Below, piece after piece: positions 13,655 through 39,552 of a stretch of 64,000 bases of DNA. The position numbers and the translations under genes are program-made. This stretch comes from Mesodorylaimus sp. YZB2_4 (taxonomy: Eukaryota; Nematoda; Enoplea; Dorylaimida; Dorylaimidae): positions 1 through 64,000 of the forward strand of contig JASANH010000720.1 of the NCBI GenBank assembly GCA_030248295.1, written 5' to 3'. The notes beneath the pieces are model-generated. The model ran no database searches. It had not been told where the DNA came from and was given only the letters and a program-made list of their open reading frames with translations. Every line of letters starts with the position of its first letter. The first letter of the stretch is position 1.

Positions 13655-14770
13655 TCAATCGACTAGGTCGCGAAGCATGCGTCTAATCAGTCGAACCAAG
13701 GACAGCGGAAGATGGAACGAATTTGATGCGGTCACCAAATTCGTTACATCTTTCATTTGTAGCCATATTTTCACAGCATTTGGCATCATTTTGATCAGCC
13801 CTCGTCTCAGATGGGTATTTTTCCAAAAAGCTAAGATAGGATAGGCAAAACAAAAACAAACTTTCCAAAAATAATTACACTGAATAAGTAGGGTCTTAAG
13901 TTCATAACTCAGCTGTAATCCAACAATTGCAGACAACAAGAAAATTTGATTTGGTAAAAAAGTGAAAAATTCTAAAAACGCTGATGGGCCAATAATTTGT
14001 GTCAGTTGTATATTTTGTTCTAGTTGAAATCGCGTCGCTAAAGTATGCGTTATCGCACGCATTGATAACATTTTGCCCAACTGATAACGATTTTTATAAT
14101 GAAGAGCACAAGCCAAACAAATCGAACATAAAGTAAAACTTAAATTTATAGCTAAACTGATTTTCGCAGAATCAGGCGAAATTCAAAGTAAATTTTCGCA
14201 GACAGCCACATATTTATCAGCATTCAAAGGAAGAGTACAAAAAAAGTTTTGTACAGAAACAATATAACAACAGAAAATTAACATCATAGCTAAAAGGAAA
14301 TCCTTGATATGATTTTTTTATCCTTTTAGTACAATAGAGACGTTCGATAGTAGTGCTACCGCAATCGTACATTAAAACTTGCGCCATCCAGCTCGAAGGG
14401 ATTTCACGTAATTTTTAACATAAAAACATTAGTTATCAAAGAACACGGTGTCTCCCAAATTGAACTATGCATTATCAGACCTGCTTTGACCACAATCCCA
14501 GTACAATACACCACAGAAAAAAATTGCCAGATTGGCAAATAATAAACGTAAATTAGCATGAATTATGATAGCGTTCAAAACTGCTAGAAATAGTGCACTG
14601 TTTAAAATGATTCCTATACTGCCTAAAATGAACTCCAGACTCAGGAGAACATGGAGACCCGGAATGTCGAGCAGTTGTGATGCAACTCGGCAAAGAGATT
14701 GGAAATCAGCAGAATTAGAAAATGAGCTAGTTATGTTGGTCTTATGTTGGCTGTTCAACTCAGGGGGCAT
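13655..14770 (-). CDS. Probable nematode Srab/Sra-type serpentine chemoreceptor
   Basis: A 7TM receptor split over at least two exons. The first starts with ATG at 14770 and covers TM1 and TM2, including the segment IHANLRLLFANLAIFF, the HxNLxxLLxN pattern typical of Srab/Sra chemoreceptors. The last exon runs from about 14156 (acceptor AAAATCAG) to the stop at 13655. It carries a TM, then ATRFQLEQNIQLTQIIGP, which matches the (S/A)xRFQxxEN pattern of these families, then two more TMs ending near FWKNTHLRR and a cytoplasmic tail. A middle exon somewhere in 14210-14410 is likely (a frame reading MYDCGSTTIERLYC followed by a hydrophobic stretch), but I could not fix its borders or phase. Such receptors act in sensory neuron membranes. 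The family call rests on these motifs alone. Confidence 0.55.
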
Positions 14771-18107: not shown

Positions 18108-20180
18108 TTACACTCCTGCAGTATCACCATCGGATAAACTATTACTCGCTCCACACGCATGATTATGCAATCCAGTGTTCATGCTCAATCTGGTTGATAT
18201 AGAACTTTGTTGAATATCGCTTTTAAATGACTTCGTTTTGTGGAAAATGAAACGTTTTCGAAGTAAATTTCTACATTCGTCTTTTGCGTTCGGATAATTT
18301 CGTCTATTTGCTAAATGACCTGGACAAAAGCAACAGCATAAAATATGTTTAAAAGTTTGTCGAAATTGACGATTACAAACGGCGTAAATCAATGGATTCA
18401 ATGCACTGTTTGTGTAACCGAGCCACAAAACAATGGTGAATGCCCAGGATGGCACGCACGACTCGTCCATAGGGGCTGAAATGCTAGCCTCGTTTGAGTT
18501 ATCGCTGGAATAGGCGATGGTTTTTAGCTGACAAAACGGCAATGCTTTCATTGTATAAACCACACAAAATCCAGACCAACACACGAAAAAGCAGCCAGTG
18601 ACCAATGCCACCGTTTTAGCCGCCCGAACTTCCCGTTTCAACTTTTTGTCGTATCTTTCATGCAGGCGGTGACGAACTTTTAATTTCGGACTGGTCATCA
18701 ATGCTTGTGTGTCGGCATTGTTATTTGGACGTTCTAATCCAATCGACCCCGAACTTTCAGTATGCCTTTGATCTGTTCTCATTGTAGAATTGGTCGACTT
18801 TGATTTCGCGAATGATGACAATCGATCATTGCACGATTTATAATCGATGGAATTTTTTACGCGCGACATTCGTCGGACATACTCGGCCATTTTTAAATCG
18901 CCCTTGACCGCTTCCTCCTTGTCCAGCTCATCATCGTCGAAAAGATCTTGACTTCGATAATTTGGGGGCGTGGCCTTCTTCATATCAACCAATCGATGGT
19001 GGGGTACATGGGAAATTGTCGCAGGTTTCGTTGCGTTTAGTTTAGTCTGATTTGGTAAATTTGCGTTTTGTTGAGACTGACTATTCGGAGTTGCTCCAGC
19101 CGCATTATATCGTCCTCGATGCACTCGCAAAGCGATTGTTTCCAGATTCGATGATTCGAGTGACCCGTTTTTGGTCACGGAAGCTGCATGAGTCGCTGGT
19201 CGATTAGCGATCATTGATTTTCGATTCCTCTTCCATGTACTCATTCTTGTTACTGGAGAAAAAGACTTTTTCGTAGAATATGATCGTCGATTTTGATTTT
19301 TTACTGATCCGATAACATTTTGTGTCTCGCTAGTCATCAAGTCGTCAGAAGCCGTAGGTGCTGATTCGATGGCTGGCACTTGTTTCTTTTTCAATGTCAC
19401 GTAACCTTTATCGACGGCTGCCGTTGCCTGACGGATTTTGATATATATTTTGACATAAATATATAATAATGCCGTAAATGGCAAATAGAAACTGCTCGAA
19501 GCCGAAAAGAAAATGTAGCCCATGGAATTATCCAAGGCTGTGCATTGACAATCGACTAAATCTGTCCAAGCTCCATCAGCATCCTCACGGCTGCCATCAG
19601 CCTGCCCCGTGCTGGCTTGATGACCTTGAAAAGTAACCATGGGCGGAAAACTGACAAGAAATGACCAAATCCAGGCTCCGCAAACGGCCAACGCAGCTTT
19701 CTTTGGTGTGACTAAAGAACGGTAAGACAAAGGACGGGTAATGGCCACATAACGGTCCAGTGCTATCACAACCAAATTATAAATGGAGGCTGTACTGACC
19801 CACACGTCCAAGGCCAGCCAAATACGACACCATAAATAGCCGAACGTCCAAAAGCCCAGTAAGTCTTGAGTGAATGAAAACGGCAGCACGCCTACGCCAA
19901 TGACAAAATCAGAAACGGCTAATGAGGCAATAAAAAAATTTGTTACTGTTCTCAATCGATGTGATAGCAAGACAGCCAGAATAACTAATAAGTTGCCGAT
20001 TATGATAGAAAAACTTAATAAAATCATTGCTGTTGCTTTGCCAAATGTTGCAGGTTCATGAAGTAGATCCTCGTACACATAACGAGACAATTCTTGGCAA
20101 CGATTCTGATAAATTCGAGCCAACACTTCAATCGTGGTAGTGTTTTCCACAAAATTTAATATTTCATCCAAGTCTACCAT
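18108..20180 (-). CDS. Amine-receptor-like class A GPCR, paralog 1
   Basis: This is a single uninterrupted frame. I take ATG at 20180 as start (690 aa); the frame is open upstream, but without another ATG. Class A landmarks, numbered from that start: N63 in TM1 (GNLL), D91 in TM2 (AVSDF), C118 before TM3, D125 (position 3.32, the amine counter-ion, in WLALDVW), DRY at 142-144, serines in TM5 (ASSSFYLP) and NPLIY in TM7 after WLGYTNSA (W7.40, Y7.43). A sequon (NTT) lies near the N-terminus. The third intracellular loop is about 280 residues and contains ALRVHRGRYN. TM6 reads CWSGF, with Gly at 6.50 where Pro is usual. Most likely a plasma-membrane receptor for a biogenic amine. The ligand (dopamine, octopamine, tyramine or other) cannot be told. 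Paralogs lie at 26.2 and 37.5 kb. Confidence 0.85.
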   Translation of the reverse strand: MVDLDEILNFVENTTTIEVLARIYQNRCQELSRYVYEDLLHEPATFGKATAMILLSFSIIIGNLLVILAVLLSHRLRTVTNFFIASLAVSDFVIGVGVLPFSFTQDLLGFWTFGYLWCRIWLALDVWVSTASIYNLVVIALDRYVAITRPLSYRSLVTPKKAALAVCGAWIWSFLVSFPPMVTFQGHQASTGQADGSREDADGAWTDLVDCQCTALDNSMGYIFFSASSSFYLPFTALLYIYVKIYIKIRQATAAVDKGYVTLKKKQVPAIESAPTASDDLMTSETQNVIGSVKNQNRRSYSTKKSFSPVTRMSTWKRNRKSMIANRPATHAASVTKNGSLESSNLETIALRVHRGRYNAAGATPNSQSQQNANLPNQTKLNATKPATISHVPHHRLVDMKKATPPNYRSQDLFDDDELDKEEAVKGDLKMAEYVRRMSRVKNSIDYKSCNDRLSSFAKSKSTNSTMRTDQRHTESSGSIGLERPNNNADTQALMTSPKLKVRHRLHERYDKKLKREVRAAKTVALVTGCFFVCWSGFCVVYTMKALPFCQLKTIAYSSDNSNEASISAPMDESCVPSWAFTIVLWLGYTNSALNPLIYAVCNRQFRQTFKHILCCCFCPGHLANRRNYPNAKDECRNLLRKRFIFHKTKSFKSDIQQSSISTRLSMNTGLHNHACGASNSLSDGDTAGV

Positions 20181-23100
20181 TTTGAAGCCTTCAGAGAATG
20201 ATTCGACTGCTGGCGGGACAGCACAGTTTCGAATTTCTGGTGTCCTATCACGACAGCTGGCTGCTTGAATACGAAGCTGAAGCGCGACTTTGAATAGCGC
20301 CCTTGTCAATGCTGAAGATTTTTGGCAGAATTAAGAAAGTTGTTTGAATAAGGAGGAAATAAAAATGCGCTTAAATTTTTCTTCCAAGTCCTAACTTTTT
20401 ACTTTTAAAATAAACGCGAGGAGAAATGGAACGCGAATTGAAAATAGGCTCTCACAGAACGCGTGAATGATTGCGTGCTTAATCGAGCGAAGACTTGGAC
20501 GTCCATTGTGCACTTCGCCTACTAAACCACCCACGGACAAAGTTTCCTGCAAAGAGAGCACAATTAAAAGTGTGTTCTAAGAGGTACTTCCTAGACTTGA
20601 GAGCTCGGAAATCGAGTATGCAATAGCAATAAAATGTTCATTGGACCAATTTTTTGTACACAGCCAGGCTGCTATTCCTAACAGTAACTATAAAACGTGT
20701 AAATTGATTTTGACTTTGCCTGTGATATCAAATCTTTTTCATGGAAACGCCTCGTTTCTCGACCACATTTGGCGCCATTTAATCGTAGTAGAGCACGAAA
20801 GTAAAAATGAAGAGAGCCAACTCTAGATTGCTCATATACCCTTCTATCACACGTCACAACGCGGCGGGGAATGCCAATTGGGGGAGAAAAAGAAAATTTG
20901 CATTATTCTCTGCCCTGGTCGCTTGGTTATGAAGCGTGGAGGCTGACTAGTGAAAGGAATTACCAGTGATACATTTTGATCGGAGGTACCCGTTCTGCGT
21001 TCAAATCGGAAGCCATGCATAACCGTTCAGTTCACGCGTACATGGCAACCAAATCGAGAACTTGCAATTTAGAGACCTCACCATCGCTATATCAGTGCTA
21101 GGGGGACAAATAGGCTCGTCAGAAGCCAAAACGAGGAGGCGCTGGAGCTATTGCTAGGGCAAGGCGTTAGTTAGGTTTCATCCCCCGCAAAGGAAAAATG
21201 TTAATAATTTACGACTCAATGTTTGCCCCATTAGCAAACATACATCGCACAATGAGCAATTATGTATGCTGAGCTCATTGGAAGCGATTAGTAGCCACCT
21301 CGTAAAAGAGTGCCCACGTTAACTCGTCATGGACATTCGACAATAGACGTTCATTTGAAAAATGTCACATAGGTAAACACAGACAGCCAACTCGTTTTCT
21401 ATCGAGTGATAATCAATCGATCAGCAGAAAAGAACGTCAATTGACGAACCTAATGAACGCCCTTCTCTCTATGGTTTCGTTATCTTACGTTATCAGCAGG
21501 CCGAGGGCGCGTCAAGAAGCCAACACCGACTTACTGTAAGATACCCCGCTGAGGCGCAGAAGGGAAACGTTTCGAAGCGAACAGTCAAATTACTCATTAG
21601 TTATTCAGTGCGCTTTCGAAAGTGGATTTCCTGATACTCAATGACTTGTTAACGAAAAATGGGAAAAGATTATAGAATTAGACTCGACTAAAAGTAAGGT
21701 AGTACAGGTGAATGATTATTCGTTCTCTGCCCAGAGCAGTGGAGCTGATATGACCTTAACCGTAGGTACCTAAATAGGCTCCGCTCGGCCGACCATCCAC
21801 TCCAACTCGAGTGCGCAGTAAGTGTTTGACACGGGGAAGTGTACACGTAGGCCACGGATAGGGAGGACCTGGAAAAGAAATAGTAACGAAATATTGAGTG
21901 GGCGTTTTCAAAGTCAAGTGCATTATTGGTCGCCTTTGAGCAGTCTAGCCATAAAAGGAAAGACGAAAGGAGAGCAATCGATTTGGGCCGGTTCAAATTT
22001 CAATGTACACAGTGTGCAGGCAGAATAGAATGGTGGCTATTTTTTATAACGACTTTGACTGATTAGATTTCCTTTCAACACTAGGGTCTCGAGGATCATA
22101 AGACTGCGGTTGTCGCACACACAATAAGCATGCATCGGAGTCTGGCTGACTTGACGTTGGTAGACTGAGTTAGGAATTGGTACGAATTGAATTCGAAATA
22201 GACCATCTGCAATGAAAATTCCTTTTTATTAAAGCAATACTCCGCGGACCCAGTCTTGTGCTTGTTTGCGCGGACTCCAGAGTTGGAGCAAGCTTATTTC
22301 CTATGGCTAAAAAGAATATATTTTGACCTTTTCTCCTTAGTGACTGACGCTGAAGGATGATGGACAATATCGAGTAGAACTCGAGGAACCCATCAATAAG
22401 GCTAAAACCAGCTTTCCCTAATTAACTTCAAGTGAGTTCACAATCCACAATTGGAGACAATGTGCGCACGAGAAGAATATTTGCTTGTCGTAGCGGGCCA
22501 AGCGTATGTACCGCCTAGGCCGCGCGAAATAGAGAAGTGTCTCGCGCTTCGACTAAACTTAGAGTTTCCCGTATCTGAAGGCGGTAATTCGATAGACAGT
22601 ACTTTCTTTCAAATTTCCATAGGAAACTCGGTGGTCCTACTAGACAGTCCTGTCTCTGGCTTCTTGTGCTTCAAGCTGGGATCAGAGGAAATTTAGTTGC
22701 CAGAAGTAGCAGACGCTGTTTTCTGTTTTAGATGATTGAATAAAAGTGTCGATGTATGTTGTAAATTTGATTTTATCCCTTTGCTCGGAATAATAAGGAA
22801 GGAATTGTGGAGACTGGTGTCTAGATTGACCATACTGTACAGTATATGTAACTGGAAGAAAACATTTTTTTTTACCTTTCGTGCCCTATGGTTTAAAGAA
22901 ATCGATGTTTCCAGGCGTCAAACGGAACTATTGATTTATAATGGCGGTCATATGGCAATACACTACGGCGGGTTAAGTAATAATAAATGTACCGCGGCAT
23001 TTTGCAGTCAGGCTGTCGGAACAAGGATAGAGAACTGGCCAGCGGTGCATACCCGTCCTGCCTGTCAAGTGGCTGTGCGTTCCAAGTAGGCTAGTGTCTT

Positions 23101-24239
23101 AAATGTCGGTCGGTCGGGGCCGAAACCAACAAATTCCCTTGAAATGGGCAAAAATCAGTCGTTAGCTAGCATCCTGATATGGAATGAGCGTAGGCAAAGG
23201 AAGTAGGAGAATGGATGAAGCAGATGAGTGATTCAATATTCGAAATTAAAACCTCAGTTATCTTTGTAGTACTTTTTTGCTGCGCACAATAACTGATGTG
23301 CGTTTGTAATCTTGATTGATGTGCAGTTTATTTTCAAAAATTACGCTGCACTGTACTTTAACGAACTTATTGTATTAGTCGATTCAAACGGTACATAATC
23401 CAATCCAGCAAAGAAAGTAGAGGAGAAGGCTACAGGGACGGAGTGCGAAGGTTCTAGATCATTTTTGGATGTGACGAAGAGTCTTTCGGCTCTCTCAACT
23501 ACACCACCATAAAAAAAGTTGTGCAGGCTCTTGCATTTGCAAAAGATAATACTCCCGTTTCTTTTCACTCCTTCTGCTTAGGCCTGTAAGTTTACAAGTT
23601 AGTATAAAATTAAAAGGATGGAATTTTACAAGGGCACGTAATTTGTGTATCTGCATTATTCAGTCGTCACGCACTCATAGAACATAGAATGCCGACAAGA
23701 ACATAGAAATGCCAAGGATAAATAGAGTTGCATTTTACGACGGTCCGAGCGAAAATATTTCCTCTCGGGTACCGACGTGGATTCTTAGCATCCATGTAGC
23801 ATGTACAGTACATATGTGAGAGAGAGCGTCACAGTGCTCCGAATGAAGGATCGCAATAGCGGGTGCAGAGTATAAAATTCTGATAGAGGATGATTAATGA
23901 GTTTGGCCAAAGAAATTCGAAGCGCTATATACAGTAGGTATGTAGTTTGGTCCCTTTTGGAGTATGCTGAGAAGTCTGTGGCTTGCTGCTGCAGCATATG
24001 GGATTCTTGATTCTTGTGATCCTGTCTGGCATGCCATCAAGTTAGCACATTTACGCTCTAAAAAATGCTTTGTTGACTGGCTTTTTCTATCGCTTTGGAG
24101 TACAAAAATTAACCAGAATTGGCGGGACTTTAAAAATTGGGCACCGTTGTTCTGCTTCTTACAGTAGTTCATAGCGAAGTGTGATTATCCACAAATTTGA
24201 TGGAGCTCTGTCGCAAGTTTCTTATTCCCCCCTTGTTTG

Positions 24240-24330
24240 AAGGCATGCACTCAAGTCAAAACACAGGTTCTCAGGGATGCGGGTTCGACTCCTGCTGTGA
24301 GCTCATGTTTCTCATGATGTTTCTCTTTCT
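24240..24330 (+). repeat. tRNA-derived SINE-like head
   Basis: 24281-24290 reads GGGTTCGACT, a pol III B box, within a T-arm-like stem (GCGGG/CCTGC). No complete cloverleaf can be drawn, so this is a repeat fragment and not a tRNA gene. It is followed by a T-rich tail. Confidence 0.4.
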
Positions 24331-25897
24331 TGTTATCATGTGTAAGAAAGTGTAATTTTTTAGGTATACCGCGCTGTGTTACAACAGAACAGAAGTCGCT
24401 CGGATTTGATAGTTTTATAGCCGATAAGATCTCATACAACTCGTAAATAACCATTCTAATCGCCTTTCCCGCAAGTCACTGTGCACATCTTGTTTTTGAA
24501 CAGAAATCTATATCACGAGAGATTCGAGGTCAAAATATGACTGATGTACGAAAACATGTACTGCGTGTGCGTATATGGCTCCCACTTACGCAGTGCTATA
24601 ATGGGTTGCAAGCGTGACACTACAAGAGAATGAAGCACCTGCAAACAAGGATAATAGTGACCAGGCTCACAAATTGCAGGTGCCTGTCGCGAGGAATGAC
24701 GCGCAAGTCAAGTAAGGCAAAGTACCCACGGATCATATGTATGAGAGCAAAGTATTGAATCCAGAAATTTCTGAATGAAGGCGTTATTCTGAGACGTGTG
24801 AATGAAGGCACGGTGGGTACGTGAGCATACGCACGAGCGGGTTTGAAGAATTAAGTGCCAGCCGGTACAGAATACGTGGGTGCATACATGAAAAGGTACA
24901 AGGTAATGACAGGATAATAGACGTATTTTTAACAAAGAGGATCATAAGATCACAGAAACGTCCAGGGCGTTCTTCAATGTCTTTAGATTTTAGTGGATAC
25001 GCCTTTATTAGCGAACAAAGCCACTATGTGACCCGGAATCGCTTTGTAAGCCGTGTCAGTCTGGCCTTTTTCAAATAAGACAATGACATGATTTCTGTTG
25101 GTTTGGCGTCCATATTTGCAATTTATGCCGCGCATGCCAATCTATATTGTCATGAATACCTTCAATAACGGCACGTCTTCTGACCGAGCGGGTCCAAAAC
25201 TTCTGCACCAAGTTTTCAACTCATTTTCCGCATACGAAGTTAAAAAGTTGCTTAGTTTTTAAACGATCCATCAAATAGCTTTTAAACTAAAGCAAGAAGT
25301 TTGAACCGCACTTTTGTCAGCATGCAGGGAGAGAAAATAGGGCTTGGAAATACAAAATGTCACTTAAAGTCAGGAAATGTCAGCAGTCACCTCGGCTAAT
25401 CAGGGGTGGCTGCTTTACATAAACGCGTAGGTAAATTGTATGCGCTTATCTCTATCTGAATACTGTGCCTTCGCGAGCACTTTTTCCACGCAAGTAGGGA
25501 GTGGGGTGCTATTATGCCAGTGACTCCTCTCTGCTAGGTTCCTGTTATGAAAATAAGCGAAGATCACGATGCTGCCCTGTGACGATGGGCGAATCAGTTG
25601 CAGGTCTAGTGGGTGATACGTGCAGACCGTGCTGTGTCAGAAGTTCTGATCGCTGTTTAATATTTTTCCGACCTGTAACCCAGTCAAGCCCGTCGTTTCA
25701 AGCGGTCTTAAAATACGATCTTCCCTCAGATTTCAAAAATGATGACGCCTTAATTAAATGACATCGGTTTCGTATTTTGAAAACTAGAGCTCAGATTTTG
25801 TACGATCATCTAGTGCTCAGACAGCCAAATTTTTGTGCAGAGATTCGAATATTGGCAAAATTCTTTTAAATAGCTATCGCAAAAATGAAACATATCA

Positions 25898-25924
25898 CAT
25901 ATAGAGCATATAGAGCATATAGAG
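25898..25924. repeat. Tandem repeat, 9-bp unit x3
   Basis: Three exact head-to-tail copies of CATATAGAG. Confidence 0.9.
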
Positions 25925-26237
25925 TCTAGAATATTCGAAAACATGGTCATGTGATAATATGCAAAAGGTATCTAGTGTCCATTGTGTGATCTAACTAGCT
26001 TTCAATATATTATAAGGCATGACTAACCTTTCAGAATGACCTCGCCCTCATTAGGCTACCGCGCCGTAAGCACGGCAAATGGCCACATACGGAGCCTATT
26101 AAGAGCGGAGGTGGGGTGAGTACGAGGCTATTGTATACCTGTGAGAGAAAGAGTGTTTTGACGAAATCAGTTTCGTCGTCGTCTTCTCCTTCCCATTTCA
26201 TCAGCAGACAGTCCTCGGGCTAACGGCGGGTGCAATA

Positions 26238-28082
26238 ATGTCAAGTTACAGCAACGTTACTGTCTTGGCTCGAGATGAAGAATCTATAGTTTTCAGGTCG
26301 ATATCAATCGTTTGCATGTGTATCGTAAATTTGTGTATTATAGGCGGCAATGCTACGCTCATTGTAGCAGTCATGACCACGAGGGGTCTCCGTCGACCAA
26401 CTTATTATTTCATAGTATCTTTGACTATCAGTGATTTGGCCGTGGGCATTTTTGTTTTCCCACTTTTCATCGACCTTATTCACCAGAATTCTTGGATGTA
26501 TGGTCCAGTTGTGTGCAGGCTGTGGATGGGTGCCCATATCTACTTGTGCACCACATCCATCTATAATTTAATAGCCATCGCCTGCGATCGAACATTAGCT
26601 GTGACCTGGCCACTGAGATACAAGGCCATGATGACTCCCGTGAAGGTCAAGCTGGTCATCGCCATTGTGTGGTTGGGGGCGCTAGTTGTATCTCTGATGT
26701 CCTTGGTGCCCGGCTGGTTCGACATGAATCAACATGAGAACATAAGATCGACGAGTTGCTCGCTGAAAAGTTTCAGCAGTGATTACATCACATTTTCAAT
26801 GTCCTTCTCGTTTTATTTGCCAATTTTGGTGCTCATCTGCGCCTACGTATGCATTTATCGGACAACAAGACGGGTTACACTCAATCAACGATTAGGCCAA
26901 CTGGACGTGCTCTCGATTGGATCAATGGGATCGACCGAATCGAATGGATCAAGGCTGAATTTGGGAATAAAAACTGGCTTTGGCGCAACGAGAAAGCTGG
27001 GAAGTGCGCTTGGACTGAGAACAACTTTGGGGAGTATCAGCGGAGCAGGGAACAATAAGCGTATTGGTATCAGCAATGAGGCGGATAGCGTATCAGGGAA
27101 CAACGCTAAGGCCAGCCTTAATGGATATTCAGCCGGAGGCGTCGCAGGAGCAGGATTTGATCCTGGAATGGCGACAAACGAGACACCGAATACGAGATCG
27201 CGTAGTGGCAGCACTTTAGTAATTGCATCGAAAGCAGAGCTCGATGAGGTGAGCGTAACTAATTTCGAAACGGCAGTGGCGACTGCCGTTCAGTCTCCCA
27301 TGACTAAGGACCCGGACGCAATATCAGCCTTGATGCGCCCTCGATTGAGAAGTCCTGTTCTACTGCGGATCCACAAGGGTCATTATCATCGTCAATCCAG
27401 CGTGTCCAGTGCTGACCGTCCCAAACAACTGCTCACGCCAACATCAGCTCGACCTATGCCCCGCCTGACTCAACGCCTGCAAGCCGTGCCCAGTGTTGGT
27501 TTGGCCGTCTTCTTGGCCACACCGCGTAGAAGTATCAGCGAATGCCATTTCCCCGAAGACTCTAATTTTATTTGGCCACTGCGAAGTCGCGAGAATTCGA
27601 ACGGTGGTCAGTCCCAGTTCTCGTCCCAGAGCGAGCCAGCGGTCGGCGCTACCTCAGAGCAAGTAAGGACATGGATTCGGATGGAACACGATTTCTGGTT
27701 ACGTATGGCCATTCATCGAAAACGACTCAGCGCTCGTTTAAATCACGTTTGGGCCCCGCGGAAGTCAGCAATTCATCGGTATCAGCAAAAGCTATCGTTC
27801 GAATTGAAAGCTTTGAAGACGTTTGGCATTGTGACCGTCTGCTTTCTGATGTGTTGGATGGGATACTGCATTGTCAACACATACGACATGGTGTGGCCAT
27901 CTTGCCAATGGAGTTCTGCATCTGGTAATGGATGCGCGCCTGAATGGGTCCTTCGAATTATGACTGCCTTGGGTTATTTGAACAGTGCACTGAATCCACT
28001 AATTTACGGAGTCTCAAACAGAAACTTTCGATTGGCGTTTAAGCGCATGGTGTCCCCTTTTTGTAGTCAGTCTAATACTTGA
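26238..28082 (+). CDS. Amine-receptor-like class A GPCR, paralog 2 (divergent)
   Basis: A single-exon frame of 614 residues from ATG at 26238. Seven TMs are readable: TM1 with GGN38, TM2 with SDLAVG, C93 before TM3, TM5 SFSFYLP, TM6 CWMGYC and TM7 GYLNSALNPLIYGVSN. It is clearly related to the receptors at 18.1 and 37.5 kb: the same CW-x-G motif in TM6, the same loop-3 motif (LLRIHKGHY) and the same KLSFELKALKTFGIVT lead into TM6. Two amine-pocket positions are changed: 3.32 is His (H100, in WMGAHIY) and 7.40 is Ala instead of Trp. DRY is DRT (117-119). The predicted ligand is therefore unlikely to be a classical amine bound through Asp3.32. Loop 3 is very long (about 320 residues) and Ser/Gly rich. 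The TMs, N/D/P landmarks and Cys pair are intact, so it looks functional. Confidence 0.85.
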   Translation: MSSYSNVTVLARDEESIVFRSISIVCMCIVNLCIIGGNATLIVAVMTTRGLRRPTYYFIVSLTISDLAVGIFVFPLFIDLIHQNSWMYGPVVCRLWMGAHIYLCTTSIYNLIAIACDRTLAVTWPLRYKAMMTPVKVKLVIAIVWLGALVVSLMSLVPGWFDMNQHENIRSTSCSLKSFSSDYITFSMSFSFYLPILVLICAYVCIYRTTRRVTLNQRLGQLDVLSIGSMGSTESNGSRLNLGIKTGFGATRKLGSALGLRTTLGSISGAGNNKRIGISNEADSVSGNNAKASLNGYSAGGVAGAGFDPGMATNETPNTRSRSGSTLVIASKAELDEVSVTNFETAVATAVQSPMTKDPDAISALMRPRLRSPVLLRIHKGHYHRQSSVSSADRPKQLLTPTSARPMPRLTQRLQAVPSVGLAVFLATPRRSISECHFPEDSNFIWPLRSRENSNGGQSQFSSQSEPAVGATSEQVRTWIRMEHDFWLRMAIHRKRLSARLNHVWAPRKSAIHRYQQKLSFELKALKTFGIVTVCFLMCWMGYCIVNTYDMVWPSCQWSSASGNGCAPEWVLRIMTALGYLNSALNPLIYGVSNRNFRLAFKRMVSPFCSQSNT

Positions 28083-29049
28083 ATGTTAGTGTGTGCTTTT
28101 TGAACAGATGCCGCGTTCACTCCTTGGCCATTTACACCTTCGAATATCGAGTTCGCTTTGTCTGAAGCTCCATAAAAGCTCGGTATCAGACAAATATGGG
28201 ATGCTATAGTAAAATGCAAAGCATAAGTCTTCTGCTTGCGTGAGAGTTAGGAAGCCATAAAATAATTCTCGAGCCAGCGACTAACATCTGTGGGCACATT
28301 CTCGCACGTAATGTGTGACGTCTGGCATACAGTTTTATCGAATGCTATTGCGTCAATGCTCCTCAGAGACCATACGTGACCTAATGATTAGTGCTAAATA
28401 ACAAAACTAATTTATGCGCCTGACTCCTCATATCACGAAGTCAGCAACAACTTCCACGAGGGTGAACAAAACTGCATGGCTTCTGAAATAATGCGCAGAT
28501 GACATCTCCGTGGATGCCAGGTGTGTAGGCTGGTTAGTATATTTAGAATAGAAGTATATGACGCGAAGCTAAATTTCTCGTGCTGACTTTTGTACTGTGT
28601 CCAGAAACGAAAAAAGTTGTTTTGATACTTAAATAAGCATAGGTCGTCTGAAATTTTAATAGGTCCTTAATGTATGCCAATACTATTATGTGTACGGGGT
28701 TACGAACGAGTTGAATACACGAAAACACGGCCTCTCATTCAAATTTTTCCGTCGAAAGTGCTCTCGGACATTAGATTATATCACATAACCATATTTAGAC
28801 TTTTCTGGATCAGGGAAGGAAGGTCGAGCCTAAATTATGCTGCATTGGACAACTAGGTTCCTGATTTGAAGTTTGCTTTTGCCTTTCCTCTGTGTGTCAG
28901 GAGGAGCCTCATAATTTCGGTCCGTTGTTTTGATAGCTCCTGGAAGATTGTTCCTGGAGCTCTGTCCTGAGTACAGGTCAAAGAAAGGATTGCTAAAGAC
29001 GTTTTGAGATTCCCAGGACCCGGATAAAGATTTCGATCCGACATTCAAA
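28083..29049. other. Intergenic DNA upstream of orphan 7TM receptor
   Basis: No gene is seen. It holds the 3' flank of the 26.2 kb receptor and the probable promoter of the receptor starting at 29050. Confidence 0.5.
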
Positions 29050-30063
29050 ATGGCAGCTTGGAATGAAACGTGCAATTTAGGAGAGTCTTACAGACTCATG
29101 GTGGCGAATGCCGAGTACGTTGTGTACATCATTATGCCGCCTATACATCTGACTTTAGGCATCTGTTTCCACGTCGCTTTCTTATACATTTTCTACAAAC
29201 AATGGAAAAAAGAAAAGGCCTTCGGGTACCAGATAGTTTGCACTATTAGTGAGCTCGTTTACCTAATTTCCCTCGATGCCATGATATACGCTGATTTCCA
29301 TTGGTCTCGCCCTGGCAATTATTGGTTCACACAATCTTATCCTCTCATGTGCTATACTGCATATTTGGTTACACCGCTGATGCAGATTGCTATGACTAAT
29401 TCGCTGCTTTCCGCCTTGGCTCAAGCTATTGATCGGGCGGTGGCTTTAGCTATGCCCCTAAGGCACAAATCATTTGACCATAAACGGCGTCAAGGTTTCA
29501 CGATCGCTGTTTGTATTTTTTTGAGTTTGGCTACCAGCATCTTTGACTGTTTCCGAATGTCACTAAGACTCGATGACAATGGTGAGTATAAACTTATTTA
29601 TAATCTTGTATTTTCGTCGTCGACATTTGCCAACTTTTCGGCTAACCTGCGCAATATATTGCGTACTGTTGGTTTAGCTGGTTTAATAATTTGTAATATA
29701 ATTATTATTTTCCTTTATAAAAAACAAAACAAAGATATGCTTCAAAAATTATTCCACACTTCTCATACGTTACATAAAGAAAAACTCAGAAAACAGCGTG
29801 AAAATACCTTATTGCTACTGGCAATTACGCAATCGATATTTGCTGCCGTTGCTACTTTGGCCGAGGTATCATATCTGTACATGCTGTTCATAACGCCAGA
29901 CTGGTTTGTAAGGTGTGGATACATAGATTTGGCATCGCCAGTGTTGGATGCTATTATTATGATTGCTAATGTTTCAAGTTTTTTAGCATCCATTATAATT
30001 AATAAGAATATTCGAAGAGTGACATTTAAAGCGCTTTCGTGTGAGAAAACGACAACTGAATAG
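29050..30063 (+). CDS. Orphan 7TM receptor, divergent class A-like
   Basis: A single-exon frame of 337 residues (ATG 29050, stop TAG at 30061). Hydrophobic segments lie at about 22-50, 60-80, 100-125, 148-170, 205-235, 262-290 and 300-325. A Cys before TM3 (C101) and an AIDRAVALAMPLRH motif after TM3 (D128, R129, A130) resemble peptide/FMRFamide-type receptors. TM1 lacks the usual GN and TM7 lacks NPxxY (SSFLASIIINKN in its place), as in many nematode-specific serpentine families. A sequon (N5) is near the N-terminus. It is unrelated by motif to the three amine-type receptors around it. The ligand is unknown. It may be a chemoreceptor or a peptide receptor. Confidence 0.7.
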   Translation: MAAWNETCNLGESYRLMVANAEYVVYIIMPPIHLTLGICFHVAFLYIFYKQWKKEKAFGYQIVCTISELVYLISLDAMIYADFHWSRPGNYWFTQSYPLMCYTAYLVTPLMQIAMTNSLLSALAQAIDRAVALAMPLRHKSFDHKRRQGFTIAVCIFLSLATSIFDCFRMSLRLDDNGEYKLIYNLVFSSSTFANFSANLRNILRTVGLAGLIICNIIIIFLYKKQNKDMLQKLFHTSHTLHKEKLRKQRENTLLLLAITQSIFAAVATLAEVSYLYMLFITPDWFVRCGYIDLASPVLDAIIMIANVSSFLASIIINKNIRRVTFKALSCEKTTTE

Positions 30064-30146
30064 AAACCTGAATTTTCAGTTTGCTACATTGCTGATGTTT
30101 TTACTGTATGTAGTGGCATAGTGTATACTGTAAATCTACTTAATTT

Positions 30147-30725
30147 GGCGAGCGAGTTAATTTGGCTAATTTGGCGGTCGACCAGGCTCCGCCAAAATTT
30201 CTTTCCGCCAATAGCTGTGTACACAATATAGGGCAACAGAAATGAATAGGAAATATTCTTAAACTGGGGCAGCATTGCCTCGGTTATGCATGATTTAACT
30301 AGCAAAATCATAAGATCAATCATTTGAAGTGACAAACATACGCATACACATTCCAATGTTGAGGCATTCTTGTTTAAAGCAATCCAAGGAAAATTTTTCA
30401 TACCCTCATCATCGTGATTGAATCACATGGCAACGCAACACTCGTCTTGATCCAACAAAAACGAAAAGCCCAAAACTCATTTTCATCCTTTGGTTGACCC
30501 AAAATCAAAAACGCAGCTCCGCCATTTGGTTGACCCGAAGTACCAACATCATCTTGACCACTCGGCTCACCCAAAATAAGATCCATGGGCCAGCCTCGCG
30601 CTCAGGAACAGCAAGGCAGGTACCTTCGCTACCACGGAAGTTCAAAACTTCACAGTACTTCCGCCAAAATTTGTCTTCGCCAAAGGGCGCCAAGGCTAAG
30701 GAACCGCCAAATATTGGTGCTGTCA
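30147..30725. repeat. Dispersed repeat with CCGCCAAAATTT ends
   Basis: Both ends carry CCGCCAAAATTT and inverted ATTTGGCGG words. The same 12-mer is found again at 3111-3122. The interior has imperfect tandem copies of a TTGGTTGACCC motif. It could be a MITE relic; ends are approximate. Confidence 0.4.
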
Positions 30726-30748
30726 AATAAAATTAATTTACAGTAGGT

Positions 30749-30774
30749 ATATATACATATATATATATATATAC
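30749..30774. repeat. TA microsatellite
   Basis: TATATATACATATATATATATATATA-like dinucleotide run with one interruption. Confidence 0.9.
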
Positions 30775-31066
30775 AGTATTATTTTGTCTTATAAAAGTGT
30801 ACCTGTGAGCTTATTAGTTATATTTAACTGATTTATGTCCAGAATATCAATGTACTGAATAAACTGAATGTGTATAGGCATGTTTAGACATACAGTAGAT
30901 AAATACGTTATGTGCTAAAGCTAAACGTTGAAAAGTTGGAAAATAGCCAAAACAGGTAACTAGAACTAAATGATCATAAAATTAATTTCTTCACACGTTA
31001 TATACTACTTCAATATAAGAAGCCAAAAAAACTATTAAAAATTTCCCCCTACTACTATTTTCGCGT

Positions 31067-32178
31067 TTACGATTCTGGCAGGAATTCCGGATTTTCAATC
31101 GCCAAAGCTGCCAAAGTATCGCTATGTGGACTGGTCCTCAAAATGTCGGCAAGCATGTCAAAGGTGACCAAGTTTCTGTCCATAAGTAAGTCGGTAACCT
31201 GTAGAAAAATTTGAACCAAAAAAGTAGGACCATTTTGATTTATAGAATGTTCTACCTTGAGAAGCTCGTCTTTCTTATTCTGTAAAACCTTTTTCGCCTT
31301 CTCGTAGGATTCGTCCAACACATTTTTGATTTCTTCAAAATTTTTGTCCATAGCCTGTGGGCCAGGGTTGTAGCTTATTCTTATCTTTAGATCCGGGCCC
31401 CTGATGCCCCATCTTAGATGCGTAGTTTCCAGATGTATCTTACCAAGCGACTCTGCGTAGGCGCATTGGCTAACCTGGATAATGATCGTAGCTTAACCTA
31501 AAGATAGGACGGACTGATTATGACTGACTTACCAAATGTGTCGCATATTCAGTGGCTATTTCAAAATCGTTCCGGCAAAATGTGTAATAATCTCCGTTTA
31601 GCATTTCCTCAGCGGCTGCTCCGGCCATAATGGTCGCAATCACGTTCAGGCCTAAACTTTTTTTAATATCAGGCATTGCATCAGAAATTAATGACCATTC
31701 TTCTTCACCGTTTTCAAATCTTGTGATACGAAGCTGAAACAAAAAATGCAGCATTAAACAGCTTGATGACTTTTTGGCCAGGCAGAGTACGAACAGATAT
31801 GGCCGCAACAAATCTAATAAAAAAAGCACCAAACAATCAAGAAGTTGCCCATTTACTTTTCTCGTGTTTAGTTTCTGAGCTCATACTGGCAACAAATACC
31901 TGATTGAGATTACCTGATTATGCATGCTCAAATTCCTGATTAAGTGAGGCAAGTTTTTATGTTTGCATGGCAGGCATATCGGTAACTGGCCAGACACCTT
32001 AATACGTGTACTGCACCGCACGTGTCTGATCGAGAGTCCAGAGTTGCTGATAATCCAAGAGGGAACGCAACTTACCCTGGGTAATCGTGCGCCTAGTTTC
32101 TCGTAACGCTGCTCGTGGTTGATGTACCTGACATATTCCATGATTTCCACTTTGGCTTCCTCGTAGCCCCCAACGTCG
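31067..32178 (-). pseudogene. AFG3/FtsH-like m-AAA protease remnant lacking the AAA core
   Basis: Four exons with good splice sites join in frame: 32178-32076 (acceptor CCTTTTAG), 31733-31533, 31354-31256 and 31198-31067 (stop). The first encodes VGGYEEAKVEIMEYVRYINH up to LGARLPR, the pattern just before the Walker A loop in AFG3L2/paraplegin/FtsH. The second encodes AGAAAEEML...RNDFEIATEYA, matching the AGRxAEExxFG...NDLxxAT region of the M41 peptidase domain. The last two are the C-terminal helices. Everything between (Walker A and B, SRH, HExxH) is absent: the 342-bp intron 31734-32075 contains no GPPGTGKT or HEAGH in any frame. The family enzyme degrades inner mitochondrial membrane proteins as a hexamer. 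This copy cannot hydrolyse ATP or bind catalytic zinc. It may be a deletion pseudogene or a truncated paralog. Upstream exons were not found. Confidence 0.7.
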
Positions 32179-32207
32179 CTAAAAGGTGGATCTGACTCGG
32201 CACCCAA

Positions 32208-35200
32208 GCTTCATCACCGCATCAGCCCTTATCATTTAACGCGGCGAATCTGGCTTTCTGACTGTAGAGTACTGCAAGTTTTGGGTGCATGTGCCCAAAA
32301 GGCCGAGCTGGTACATAGCTGCCCGTGCAAGCTGGGGAATTCTATTTGCAGTACAGTAAATTCCAACATCCGGCATTTCCATCCCCTTTAAATTTCTCTA
32401 CCCTCGCATATCCCCGGGGGTAAAACGTCTGAGAAAGGTGGTTACATATGTACGTCACGAGATACATTTTGTCGATTTTCTTTTCATAATTTTGTCCTTC
32501 CTTCTCAGGAGTGTCTATTGCTGGCCTAGTTCTGTAGAGACCAGAAATATGTAGGTGCATCTGTACAGAAACATATTTGCTGGGCCCACTTTAAATCCCG
32601 CCTGAGGAAATAATTTAGCACACCGGTATGCCTTGGACGTTCAATCTGAACAACACACAGCAGCCATGGGTTTCATGAAAATATCGGATGCGATTATGAG
32701 CCATCATCTGGGACCTCCAGATCTCCAATTAAAACTTTTTAGCGACAATGATTCCTTTATAAAAACGCCTTTCGTGTTCAAAAATACAAAACTACTGCCC
32801 CGAATTTGTCATCTAAATCCGCCCCCCCCCCCCAGGCTGAATTGGTGCATGCTTCTTGCCAACATTCCCGATTCCGGTTCGAATTTCTTAAGGTAATACG
32901 ATAGTCAAAGGCAAGCTGAAACAGAGTTCATTTAGGCATTTTACTGATGAGGATGCATTTTAGCACGCTCACTCATCACGTAAATCTTTTCCCGCTTGCA
33001 TATTTAGTATCTATTCGTATTTTCCGTAACTGCAACCAACCTTTGAAACAATTTTTCGGAGTGATTGTTATACAGTAATTATGCTCTGTGGGAGAAGAGA
33101 AAATTGGACTTAATTTTTCTGTCGCTTTTGTACAAAATCTTTAATTATTTCTGCTCACAATCACACCCAAGAGCGTTTAATAATCGTCTGTCCTGCAATC
33201 AATACTCGCACCAGCTCCTTCTTGACTATGACTTGCCTAACAAGCACGGTAGCAACAAGGCGCCATAGCAACACAGCTCTCACCTGCGTGACAACACATT
33301 GGCGAGGGGATCGATAATTATTGATCTTGAGCATATCCGAGCGAGAATTTTGAAGTGGCACATGCGCGGTGACGACCTAGTCTTTATTGCGAAATGCTCG
33401 AAATAATTGGAAGATCAAGTTCTGAAACGATCGAGGCCTGATAGAGCAGTCCACAATTAAAGTTTCTCGTTTTTCTTGCCCCCCCTTTGAGAAGTGACCC
33501 TCTCTCGAAGGAGTCTGATTTCATTTTGGCAGCACAAATAAATGCAATACAACATGGCACATCTGTGCGTGCGTCGAGGTGAAAATAGGGTCCAATTCTG
33601 GTGCCAGGAATACAGCTTGGTGTGCTGCGTCAACATTCAAACATGTCAGGATGACACAACCGTGATTGTCTTATCAGGATGAAGATAGCGCTGACCAGTG
33701 GCTAATCTTTTCTTTTTCTTGTTTTCTTGGCCAAATTCTTGTTGCAATTCACAATCTATGTACATACCGGTATATGTGCGGGGTGTGGTAGGCGCTCTAA
33801 TGTTTTGCCTTGCGATGCGGCGAGTGATCACGACCAGGCAGTAAAGAGGACAGTAGACAGAAAAGCCCGGAAAGGCTAACCAGCCGAGAGTCAAGAAGTA
33901 TCTCGAGGGTTTTTTAAGGGGAGAAAACAGAGATAAAAGCAATGTAAATGGATTTTTTCCCGCCGAGTGAACTGTCGCCAGTAGTTTTATCTTGGAAATT
34001 CGATTATTGCTGATCACCCAAGCATTATCTCTAGGGTTTTAAAAAACCTCCAAAAACCTGATATCAATCATTTCATTCAGACAGACTTATTTTGGCCCCG
34101 GGACCGCCTTGCCACTATGTCAAGTGGACAAGTCGATTGGGTCGAGTCTGCCAGAAACTTTGTCCCAAAATAAGGGGTCATGGGTGTAAGACACTAATCT
34201 TTCCTTCCAGACTTTTTCTCCAACAGTAATAGGAAGCTACTTCAGGACGTTGGTCGAACCGTCCCCGAGTTATTAACTGACCAAAAGGGCCCTGTCGCAT
34301 GCGCCTGGTTTGCTTATCTAAGCGAGCTGATTTATTGCTTGCTTCGCAACCATTCTTTTTTCCCTAAAGAACTCGATTCCTTTTATGGAATCTACTGTGG
34401 AAAAATTCTTAGCAAACTTAGACATTTGAGCCTGTTTGTAAGAGGCCTTATAGATGACAGACCTATGCCAATCGCAACAATATAATGGAAGCCAAAAGTG
34501 CTACGCAACACCACGTAGGGGTGTACAGAGGTAGCAACATACAGTAACTCTTTCACCTGTGACTTTGTCCATGTCACCAGGAAGGTCTGTTCTGTTAGAA
34601 CCACTACTGCTCCCACTGTTCCACAAGCTTGGTCAGACCTGACAATATCTGGATTGCGGCCCTGAAAGTGGGCTCCTCATTCTTCTGGCATGCTTTAATT
34701 ATCATCTGAATTGGCTTCCCCTTTCAGACGGGTGGACAAGTCAGCATCACTTGATCCACTTGCGTCTTCGCATTCAGCTTCGACTGCCTCATTAGTCATA
34801 CTCAATAATTTCTCAGTTTACTCATGTAACCTTCGGCACAACCGCGGACATTTACTGCCAGATTGCGTCACTGTTTCCAGTTGTTTGTTATTTCCCTAAA
34901 AATTCCTGGAGCGTTCTCTTACAAGGCTACAACCCCCGGCGCATTTCGAAGTGCGCTAAAATACGCAAGCGCAAATAGCCGACAGCCATGGATACGAAGC
35001 CATGGGCACCTTCCAATAGTGTGCCAATAGGAGTAGTCAATTAAGACAAATGCTTTTCTATTTCGTCCCAGTCGACCTAATCGGCATGCCGGCACACACA
35101 TTCCATCATCGTCAAGCCTAGTCCCCTCACCCTGCAACGTGGCGTATGCCCATACGAGATGTGCGCTCTGCACGGTACCATGGACGTAAATAAACGCTGA

Positions 35201-37509
35201 GGGGTTTATTGAAAAGAGCGAAATGAGTGCCTGTCTCAGATGCTAGGATGACCCGACAGGGGCGACAGTAGATGGAATCTCCCGACGGTGCCCGTCCATC
35301 CCTCCATTAGTAGTGCACCAGCGGGAGCTCCTCATTATCATTCTCGCCTGTCATGCACGCGGCGGAATGCTATCATCCTAGCATCTCGTCACCGAACCCC
35401 CCCCTCCTTCATCTGGCCTCTGTAGCTAATATAATACGAGTTAGGACTGCCGGCGTTAACGTCAACTGCAGAAGCGGGTACAGGCTTATTAGCTATGTAC
35501 GCACTGCGCCGAAAGCTGCCCCGTGTCCAATCCTTGCCGAGCTGTTGTTGCTCTCTGTTCTCTTATGCTTATTACTTAGCCGTGTCCACCTACCCCCTTA
35601 CCTAATGGATAGTTAGACTAGAAGACTGATCAGTTTCGCCGGCAGGTTCAGTCGGTACTTTAGGGTAGAAGGAATACTTAGGAGAAGAAAGCAGCCCGTT
35701 GGCTAACTTGTCACATTTCTTGATTTCTTCGGTGCAAAGCGTTGCTTCCTCATTTTATCAAAATATCCGGTACGTGAGATATAAGCATGATAAAAGGCAG
35801 CCACTTACTTTCCTCCACCTCTTTTGGAAGAGGTCCCTGTGATCACTGCTTGTGAGCTCACAATTTAAGCTTTTCGCAGCTACTGTCTGATTGGACTAAC
35901 TGTATATCGTAGGTTCCAGAATAATACCTACTGATTACGCCGACTGCGCCTGTGCAAAGTTTTGTAAGCAGCTTTATCAGAAGTGCACTGGATGAAAACT
36001 TGGTTGATAAGGTTATAAAGTTGTCAATGATAGTCATGGGCCATAGTGAAAAGCCGTTCAATTTTTATGACCTGTAGCTAAATGTTAAAAAATCGTGAAG
36101 TTTTTTGTGATAACTTATAAAAGGCTGATATTTTCTGTGGAAAGATTCTCTCTAGATTTTGGCGAAATATCAGAATTTTTTTAAACCATAGCGGTTTTTT
36201 TCATGATAGCTCTGATTCTTGCATTCTTTGTCAGCTTACCGCAGACCTCGTATAATCAATATTTCTTAGATGAGGCTCTGAGAATTTACCTTTTCCTGAT
36301 AATACGTCAAATGCAGTAGCCTTCAGGTTTTCCAAACGAAACAATCCGTCTTTGCGTGTTTGCCGTTTTTCCTTATGTGTCGTTTAAGAGAATTTTTCAT
36401 TTCCATTACGATTGACGGGACCTCGAAGCTATTTATGGCAGTGCTTTTCCATTTTCCTATTTTCTTTTATCTAGTTGTTTATAAGTTAGCTCAAATGGCC
36501 CAACATGGCTTCAGTCTTGAAAACATGCAAATGCCTCCCGGAATACGAATGTCTTTAGCTATCTGCGCAGGTAGACGGAACATTTTGCATCAGATATATT
36601 AAAATTACATGCATTAGCGGCCTACAAATTGGACTTGAATATTCTTGAAGAGAAGTCTTTCCATTAGCTGCTGTGGAGGTGGCTAATGAGAGCCGATGGC
36701 GCTTAATGAGCTTGGTCACTCCCAGAAAAGTGTCTACGATGTTTCCTTTCTGATTGATTGTAAGATTAGAGCCTGGCATAGCTTTATACTGTTCACTCTC
36801 CCCGAAGAGGTGCCAGATGGACTCTGCAGGGATCAGCAGAAACACGTATCACCTTTTGTATCATGTCATGAACACGATGCTTTGGGGAGTTGGACTGAAA
36901 TATACCTCACAATTTTTACTGACGTTGGAGAACTGACCGTTAAAGGTTGTCTTTTGAACCCGTCGTAGATACGTAAGCGTCTGTCAGGTGGTAAATGGTG
37001 ACAGATAAAGTCCGATCTAGTCAAGGGCGCGGGCGAATAGGCTCCCAAAAATACTCTTGATCAGCAAAGAATACTCTGCGAAGACATTTATAGGTAACAA
37101 GCCTTATTCTGACTTTTTCATCGCTCTATTTCACCTGAATCCCGAGGCATCGTCTTGCCAAGTTTTAAAAAAAGGCTTTTTTCTAAGGTCACAGTGCATT
37201 AGGCACCTTGAGTGGCTGACGTGTTGTCACGTGCAACAGGATTTCCAAACTCATTTTGATAAAATAAGTGCGATGGTTAACTAGGAATGGCCTCATAATT
37301 GCCAGATGTCCAGTCATTGATTTTTAATCTTTTTATATAGAATAAGAAATGCAATTACTTTTTTCCTAGTTTCTTCCGCCTTCAGTCTTCTGTCGAAAAC
37401 CCTGTTCACAACGTTGTCAGACTTCTCTTTCTAGACTATCAATTGGGACATCTCAGACGGCCCAGAGCGTATCCATCGATTTCACTCGCACTTAATCTTG
37501 TCCTCAACC
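32208..37509. other. Intergenic DNA
   Basis: No gene is recognised over 5.3 kb. A poly-C run lies at 32822-32833. A 123-codon minus-strand frame (33646-34017) has one hydrophobic stretch but no other feature. The last few hundred bases should include the promoter of the receptor at 37510. Confidence 0.55.
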
Positions 37510-39552
37510 ATGAACGCGAGTTCAGAATTTTCGCGTTGCTTATTATCGAAGAATCTGACTGATTCGTACGATTTCGTCACGCCCTTACGTTACTGGAGCG
37601 AAATTAGTCTTTTAATTGTTTTCAATGTTTTTGTTGTCATTGGAAATTCTATCGTTTTATTAGCAATAGCTATTGATCGACAATTGCGTACGCCAACGCA
37701 TTATTTCATAGGCTCATTGGCCGTGGCTGATTTGGCACTGGGGATATTCGTATTGCCCTTTGCAACGGCTTTGCAAATGCGGGGTTACTGGACATTCGGA
37801 TCATTCTTCTGTCAAATATGGTTAGCGTTCGACGTGTGGCTATGTACGGCTTCGATATACAGCCTGATAGCGGTAAGTGGATTCCTAGTCGACATGTCGG
37901 GCAAGTACAAAGCCAGTGCAGCGTAAAGACGACGTAAAGCTGATTTTAGGATGAGCATTGCAAGCTTCTTTTTTGCAGTACCTGCGATTTTAGCAATACT
38001 CGACTCTTTTCAGGTCACTTTCGATCGTTTTATCGCTGTAACCAAACCCCTCACGTATAAATTGATAATGACGCGTCGTAAGGCGAGTCTACTGATTGTG
38101 GTCGTGTGGGTATCGGCTCTGATCATCTGTTTGCCCGCATTCGCATTCTCGCTCCACCGGACCTATCGTCTCAGTTCGGTCACTTGCCAGTGTACTCAAA
38201 TGGCCCATAGCGCGATGTATATCGCTTACAGCTCCACAGGCTCTTTCTACTTGCCCATGGTCATCATAGTCTATTTGTATGCTCGAATTTACAGCACGGT
38301 TCGCAAGATTCGTCTGAGTGGCAGCACTGGAATCGTGAGTATGGCCAAATCGGCGATGGCGGGCGGTGCTGCAGCCATGGCGGCTGCCCACGCTGGCACG
38401 GCTAACCTGAAGAAATCTCTGTCCCATAACAGTTCGAAAAAACACGATACTTTGTTGGACCGTGGACCGCAACTAAGCGCTACTTTAAGAGTACACAAAG
38501 GAAAATATCAGCCTGCAATATATTCAGAACCAAAAAAGAAGTTATCGGAACGTTTAGCAAAAACTCCGAGTCGATATTCTAGCTTCTCATTAGCTAGCGA
38601 TCTAAGAGTGTGTAAAACTAATCCGGATCGTTATTGTAGCGTAGAAAATGTAGCACGAACTGCCAGTCGAGAAGATGACCTGCACGAGATGATCGTCGTG
38701 GAAGCCGCTCAAGATACGAATGAGCCAAAAATGGAAACTGAGATGTCAGATTCGAATTACCCACATTTTGGAAGTCTATGTCCTTCTCGATCGATGAACG
38801 AGGATCATTTGGACACTCGATATCTGACTGTCAACAGTGCAGCGGCCTCGTGCCTGAGTAGCATGTCGAACAGTCCGCGTGGCTCGATGAGCATGGAAAC
38901 GAGATATCTCGAGCGTCAAATATCAGCTGCTGCTGACCAATCAGCCAGCACAGCACTGGGTGCGCAAAATCCAGCTACGGCAGCGGCCGATTTATGGCTT
39001 CATATAATTATGCCATCGCAATTGACATCACTTTGGTGCCAGCGTATGACCGTTTTTCAAAAATATCAAAAAAAGTTTGCTTTGGAACTGAAAGCTCTAA
39101 AAACTGTCGGGATCGTAACAGGTTGTTTCTTCGCGTGTTGGCTAGGTTTTTGCATCGTTTATACCATGCAAGCTTTACCAAATTGTCGCGCTGCTGAACC
39201 GGTTTGGGAAGCGTCACGAAGGCGTGCTATCGACTCTGTGACCGAAGCAGTGCAAAGCCTATTCGGGACTACACTAGCACCAAATATGGAATTCTTTGCT
39301 TCCAGTGCCAGCTCGTCGACATCATATTCGAGTATTGGCAGCTGCGTCCCGGACTGGGTCACGAACTTGATGGTTTGGCTAGGTTATGTTAACAGTGCTA
39401 TGAATCCTATCATATATGGTGTGTCGAACAAACAATTTCGACGCACATTTAGAAGAATTATGCGGTGCAATATTGTGTGGAAGAGATGCGCTTTGGGAGC
39501 GAGAGATCGGAAAAGGTCTCAGGATGGGTTATATAAGAACAGAATAGCCTGA
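37510..39552 (+). CDS. Amine-receptor-like class A GPCR, paralog 3
   Basis: Exon 1 (37510-37872) and exon 2 (38014-39552) join in phase 0 across a 141-bp GTAAGT...TTTTCAG intron to give 633 residues. ATG at 37510 starts MNASSEF, with sequons at N2 and N15. Landmarks: GN46 in TM1, AVAD74 in TM2, C101, D108 (3.32) in WLAFDVW, DRF in place of DRY, CQCT in extracellular loop 2, TM6 CWLGFC (Gly at 6.50), and [14 protein letters not shown] in TM7. Loop 3 is about 280 residues and contains [11 protein letters not shown]3.32, W7.40 and Y7.43 are intact, so a biogenic amine ligand is likely. It is closest by motif to the 18.1 kb receptor, with which it shares CQCT, FC(I/V)VYTM and ALP-x-C. The intron sits just before the DRF triplet, and the two paralogs have no intron there. 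Confidence 0.87.

Follow-up and report, generated by a model that had tools for sequence, protein, structure and literature searches.

Glycine at the hinge position of transmembrane helix 6 in a clade of eight amine-type receptors of the nematode Mesodorylaimus sp. YZB2_4

The window analysed here comprises bases 1-64000 of contig JASANH010000720.1 (C106) from the assembly GCA_030248295.1 of Mesodorylaimus sp. YZB2_4, a genome of 145 Mb in 1067 contigs, in which the N-terminal domain of cuticle collagens, a mark of nematodes, was matched 133 times. A search for the SL1 RNA gave no match, and neither did its control. Three predicted receptors of this window, R1, R2 and R3, carry glycine at position 6.50 of transmembrane helix 6 (TM6). 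The proline usually found there is generally described as the pivot of TM6 movement during activation of class A receptors. It occurs in 98% of the non-olfactory members of class A, where it bends the helix by about 35 degrees (PMC3610275), and in 98.3% of the human ones (PMC6059404); papers are cited here by their PubMed Central numbers. About 2% of class A receptors lack it, so that proline can be regarded as usual and not as required, and the receptors described below as a variant that is not excluded from class A. The locus raises the question whether these glycine-bearing receptors share one origin and how a TM6 without its proline could work.

The gene for R1 (18108..20180, minus strand) is intronless and encodes 690 amino acids with a match to the Pfam profile 7tm_1 (E 1.7e-61, 208.4 bits); Gly6.50 was read in the sequence as the GGA codon at 18570..18572 (minus). 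R2 (26238..28082, plus strand; 7tm_1 E 2.4e-52, 178.4 bits) is also intronless, with 614 amino acids and a GGA codon at 27861..27863 (plus). For R3 (37510..39552, plus strand) two exons were recognized, each with a 7tm_1 match, which give 633 amino acids when joined. Exon 1 (37510..37872, plus; E 2.7e-24, 86.5 bits) extends from TM1 to most of TM3 and ends at a donor read in the sequence, and exon 2 (38014..39552, plus; E 5.8e-34, 118.2 bits) extends from the end of TM3 to the C-terminus and includes the GGT codon for Gly6.50 (39145..39147, plus). The predicted intron between them (37873..38013, plus; 141 bases, GT-AG, phase 0), also read in the sequence, is located at the end of TM3 and leaves the joined frame open. 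All three receptors pass the curated 7tm_1 cut-off of 30.5 bits and belong to the rhodopsin-like class A.

The motifs around the hinge are CWSGFC in R1 (with D3.32, DRY and NPLIY), CWMGYC in R2 (with H3.32, DRT and NPLIY) and CWLGFC in exon 2 of R3 (with DRF and NPIIY). A first-pass annotation of the window had claimed that glycine stands at 6.50 in all three, that NPxxY and the TM3 cysteine are kept and that the change is therefore not decay. The first two of these claims hold: the motifs lie in frame within the 7tm_1 matches, and Cys3.25, R3.50 and NPxxY are present in each receptor. A misread frame at TM6, which the annotation had named as a possible source of error, was not found, as E6.30, F6.44, C6.47 and W6.48 precede Gly6.50 at their expected places. 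More generally, the idea that a misread frame, a misalignment or pseudogenes lie behind Gly6.50 is largely refuted and deserves next to no credence, given the long open frames of the three genes, the conserved residues that flank TM6 on both sides and the recurrence of the feature at five other loci.

These loci were found among the receptors of the whole genome, in which at least 164 matches to 7tm_1 were counted, a lower bound with 142 of the 1485 first-look candidates scored. The 150 of these 164 matches that were listed include 75 within stretches fetched for reading. Position 6.50 could be read in 61 receptors, which represent the stronger part of the list together with chosen two-exon loci and are neither a full nor a random sample (TM6 is not readable in L041, L042 and L048, while L060, L061 and L063 stand outside the 61). 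Proline was found in 51 of them, glycine in nine and alanine in one (L056). Five of the glycine-bearing receptors join those of the window in the group described below: L003 (CWIGFC), L049 (CWAGFC) and L050 (SWLGFC) on contig C58, L005 (CWLGFC) on C8 and L059 (CWTGFC) on C75. The eight genes are thus distributed as three on C106, three on C58 and one each on C8 and C75. Outside this group Pro6.50 is present in 51 of 53 readable receptors, in agreement with its claimed near-universality.

A second substitution, which is not mentioned in the first-pass annotation, was detected in the same helix. Cys6.52 replaces phenylalanine in all eight receptors. Of the 26 remaining amine-type rows in the trees described below, all have Phe6.52 except L036 and L038, which have asparagine, and L041, which is unreadable. 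Proline is absent from the whole of TM6 between 6.30 and 6.58 in all eight. When R3 was used as a protein query, all eight had their best-scoring piece ranked ahead of the first non-member. A search of the whole genome at the DNA level for the pattern C-W-x-G-[F/Y]-C-[I/M/V] returned 11 places versus one for the reversed control, and seven of the 11 are receptors of the group. L050 falls outside this pattern because of its Ser6.47, and any member with another residue at 6.47 or with an intron that splits the motif would likewise escape it. The four other places (on C9, C39, C61 and C233) have stops close on both sides and were taken as chance matches. Scans of viral contigs and prokaryote genomes revealed no outside relatives, as expected.

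For the phylogenetic analysis 37 rows were used, 34 picked as amine-type (acetylcholine-like receptors included) and three peptide receptors as outgroup, or 36 rows when R2 was left out; a first, smaller tree had omitted four fragments (L042, L055, L056 and L058). When 13 columns of TM6 were masked, the eight receptors formed a single clade with support of 99.7/100 (Shimodaira-Hasegawa-like approximate likelihood ratio test, SH-aLRT/ultrafast bootstrap, UFBoot). The same clade was obtained from TM1-5 alone (99.2/99; best-fit model 98.9/100), and from TM1-5 without the long-branched R2 its seven remaining members were held together at 99.6/100. The common descent of the eight Gly6.50 receptors is thereby shown. 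Support along the backbone of the amine-receptor tree is poor, and a sister amine family is not indicated.

Identity in the TM core falls to 36% between the most distant members of the clade. By this measure the closest relative of R3 is L050 (72%) and that of R1 is L005 (50%), both on other contigs, which indicates that the cluster in the window belongs to a family that is older and partly dispersed. The clustered sublineage claimed for the window thus stands as one clade, with five more genes, but is clustered only in part. In the masked tree R3 was placed weakly with L059 and not with L050 (45.6/88), and R3, L059 and L050 were strongly united (99.2/98). As for gene structure, a phase-0 intron lies immediately before position 3.46 in R3 and, to judge from the acceptor, in L059, whereas in L050 and L049 the codon of Arg3.50 is split by a phase-2 intron, although L050 is the nearest relative of R3 in identity. 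An intron shift or replacement would account for this difference.

The ninth glycine was found in L018 (C142), an amine-type receptor with the motif SWLGYF, in which Gly6.50 is combined with Phe6.52. L018 groups with the proline-bearing L010, L031 and L051 at 100/100. A single origin of all Gly6.50 was rejected, as a tree constrained to place L018 within the clade is worse by 84 log units (approximately unbiased test, p = 0.0008; p = 0.0004 with the smaller set), and the residue therefore arose at least twice in this genome. The separate acquisition by L018 counts mildly against the suggestion that CWxG strictly marks one clade, although eight of the nine Gly6.50 cases found belong to that clade. 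In the small clade of L018 a further departure was observed in L010 (C65), where cysteine replaces the toggle tryptophan at 6.48 (ACLPFF).

Apart from 6.50 and 6.52, the eight receptors are conventional at most positions tabulated. N1.50, D2.50, C3.25, I3.40, D3.49, R3.50, W4.50, S5.42, S5.46, F5.47, P5.50, Y5.58, E6.30, F6.44, W6.48, Y7.43, P7.50 and Y7.53 are kept in all of them. Asp3.32 is present in seven, with histidine in R2, and position 6.47 is cysteine in seven and serine in L050. The D/E-R-Y motif deviates in R2 (DRT) and R3 (DRF), and NPxxY is kept in seven with DPxxY in L049. All four glycine codons (GGA, GGC, GGG and GGT) are used at 6.50 among the eight genes, so this residue has been held through synonymous turnover. 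The 72% identity of R3 and L050 in the TM core drops to 56% when exon 2 is aligned, in keeping with a core under constraint and an intracellular loop 3 (ICL3) that drifts. Constraint on Gly6.50 and Cys6.52 within the clade is well supported by these comparisons, and the long open frames, the other switches kept and the use of four codons are unlike decay, as had been proposed. The receptors of the clade are probably functional.

A function outside G-protein signalling, as decoy, arrestin-only receptor or chaperone with a decayed hinge and no further need of the TM6 swing, would be compatible with the absence of Asp3.32 and of the DRY tyrosine in R2 and with the DPxxY of L049. It appears very improbable, however, as E6.30, R3.50, Y5.58, F6.44, W6.48 and Y7.53 are retained in all eight and position 6.50 is conserved as glycine instead of showing varied residues.

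On balance we lean towards the reading that these genes represent a working clade of amine-type receptors, in which proline was replaced by glycine at 6.50 and phenylalanine by cysteine at 6.52 before the clade diversified, and in which TM6 would bend on demand at the glycine. Without Pro6.50 the helix would have no permanent bend, unlike that of other class A receptors. Gly6.50 could provide backbone flexibility at the usual position of the proline, and loss of the bulky partner of Trp6.48 at 6.52 could give space for a straighter helix. In a model of the beta-2 receptor TM6, a correlation was reported between the Pro6.50 kink and the states of the side chains at 6.47, W6.48 and F6.52 (PMC3343417), which suggests that two parts of one local device have been altered together. 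The expected outcome would be a shifted resting balance, in basal activity or efficacy, and not a dead receptor. Amines would be bound via Asp3.32 in seven of the eight receptors, and R2 may bind none or bind one in a different way.

Several points weigh against this reading. The two changes need not occur together, since L018 has Gly6.50 with Phe6.52. The straighter TM6 is something that we infer, and the helices around it may produce the usual bend even where no proline is present. Synonymous divergence (dS) is undefined in four of five pairs and saturated in the fifth (4.7), so that no usable ratio of nonsynonymous to synonymous divergence (dN/dS) could be derived.

If the helix bundle does impose the bend, glycine at 6.50 may be nearly neutral, the receptors would signal like ordinary amine receptors and the motif would be a phylogenetic marker without mechanistic meaning. 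The retention of the remaining switches and the occurrence of the change twice in one genome without visible decay would both agree with this, as would the existence of nematode receptors with other residues at 6.50: NPR-4 has tryptophan, and the FRPRs keep neither W6.48 nor P6.50 (PMC11315170), so departures from Pro6.50 are not unheard of in nematodes. Near-neutrality is nevertheless rated as rather unlikely, because proline is kept in nearly all of the readable receptors outside the clade (the 51 of 53 given above) and because the combination of Gly6.50 and Cys6.52 is invariant in eight of eight members in spite of the divergence of their TM cores.

A stronger version of the flexible hinge can be drawn by analogy with other receptor classes. 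In the class B1 receptor VIP1R, Gly6.50 of the PxxG motif forms a sharp, activation-dependent kink of TM6 (PMC7431577), and the same is described for the adhesion receptors GPR56 and LPHN3 (PMC9772185), which indicates that a glycine hinge can serve. The clade might accordingly have re-evolved a proline-free hinge of the class B kind, with a TM6 that is straight in the resting state and bends at Gly6.50 only on activation, and with the coupled loss of Phe6.52 taking the place of its partnership with the Trp6.48 toggle. This proposal is regarded as unlikely. The likeness lies in glycine as the bending point and concerns a possible way of working only, with no descent implied. Class B1 and adhesion receptors are different receptor classes, and class B1 has proline at 6.47b, whereas 6.47 is cysteine in seven members of the clade and serine in one, so that PxxG does not occur there.

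Among solved structures, the best relatives by sequence are adrenergic receptors, with alpha-1A first (in the best 60 of 783 and 907 matches). With the alpha-1 and beta adrenergic receptors the clade shares the class A match, D3.32 (in seven of eight), S5.42, S5.46, W6.48, Y7.43 and the ionic-lock residues, and the PIF triad (P5.50, I3.40 and F6.44) is also present. The difference lies in Gly6.50 and Cys6.52, found in all eight members, whereas alpha-1A has CWLPFF. The FRPR and NPR receptors resemble the clade in being nematode receptors of class A without the usual Pro6.50. They are peptide receptors, however, and the FRPRs alter NPxxY and seem to be without the disulfide between TM3 and extracellular loop 2 (PMC11315170), while the clade has W6.48 in all members and NPxxY in seven, and most of its members are standard in the tabulated motifs beyond 6.50 and 6.52.

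Among the papers listed, from a literature that mostly excludes subscription journals, no amine receptor with Gly6.50 was found in titles and abstract openings, nor in passages of PMC4814114, PMC8225760, PMC11943259 and PMC6114109. Where papers on CWxG and Gly6.50 were read, the receptors with this glycine are of class B or of the adhesion type (PMC9772185). The clade, together with L018 beside its proline-bearing sisters L010, L031 and L051, makes the role of the proline testable in receptors that evolution has apparently kept working. Such natural Gly6.50 receptors differ in this from single mutants, which may simply misfold.

R2 shows further departures within the clade. The aspartate that anchors the amine at 3.32 is replaced by histidine and Trp7.40 by alanine, and position 6.51 is tyrosine. 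The changes at 3.32 and 7.40 make an altered ligand possible. The amine-type assignment made for all three receptors of the window is one of descent, with Asp3.32 present in R1 and R3; R2 is amine-type by descent only, because of its His3.32.

A short motif, [L/M/I]-R-[V/I]-H-x-G, was observed in the otherwise poorly alignable ICL3 of all eight members. In the window it was located by motif search as LRVHRGRY in R1 (19107..19130, minus), LRIHKGHY in R2 (27363..27386, plus) and LRVHKGKY in R3 (38485..38508, plus). In the other frames of the fetched loci, 117,414 residues in all, a slightly wider pattern matched twice. The motif is also present in four amine-type receptors with Pro6.50 (L014, L022, L032 and L052), which hints at kinship. 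It may represent a docking site.

Profile searches of the remainder of the window identified a protein of the LBP/BPI/CETP family in one long frame (3494-5053, minus strand) and a THAP domain (10775-11158, plus). A fragment at 13658-14182 (minus) gave a weak match of 20.7 bits to the Srab chemoreceptor family, for which the cut-off is 21. Two further long open frames, at 29047-30060 and 48087-49667 (both plus), showed weak 7tm_1 matches of 21.8 and 25.5 bits, respectively, under the cut-off for this profile.

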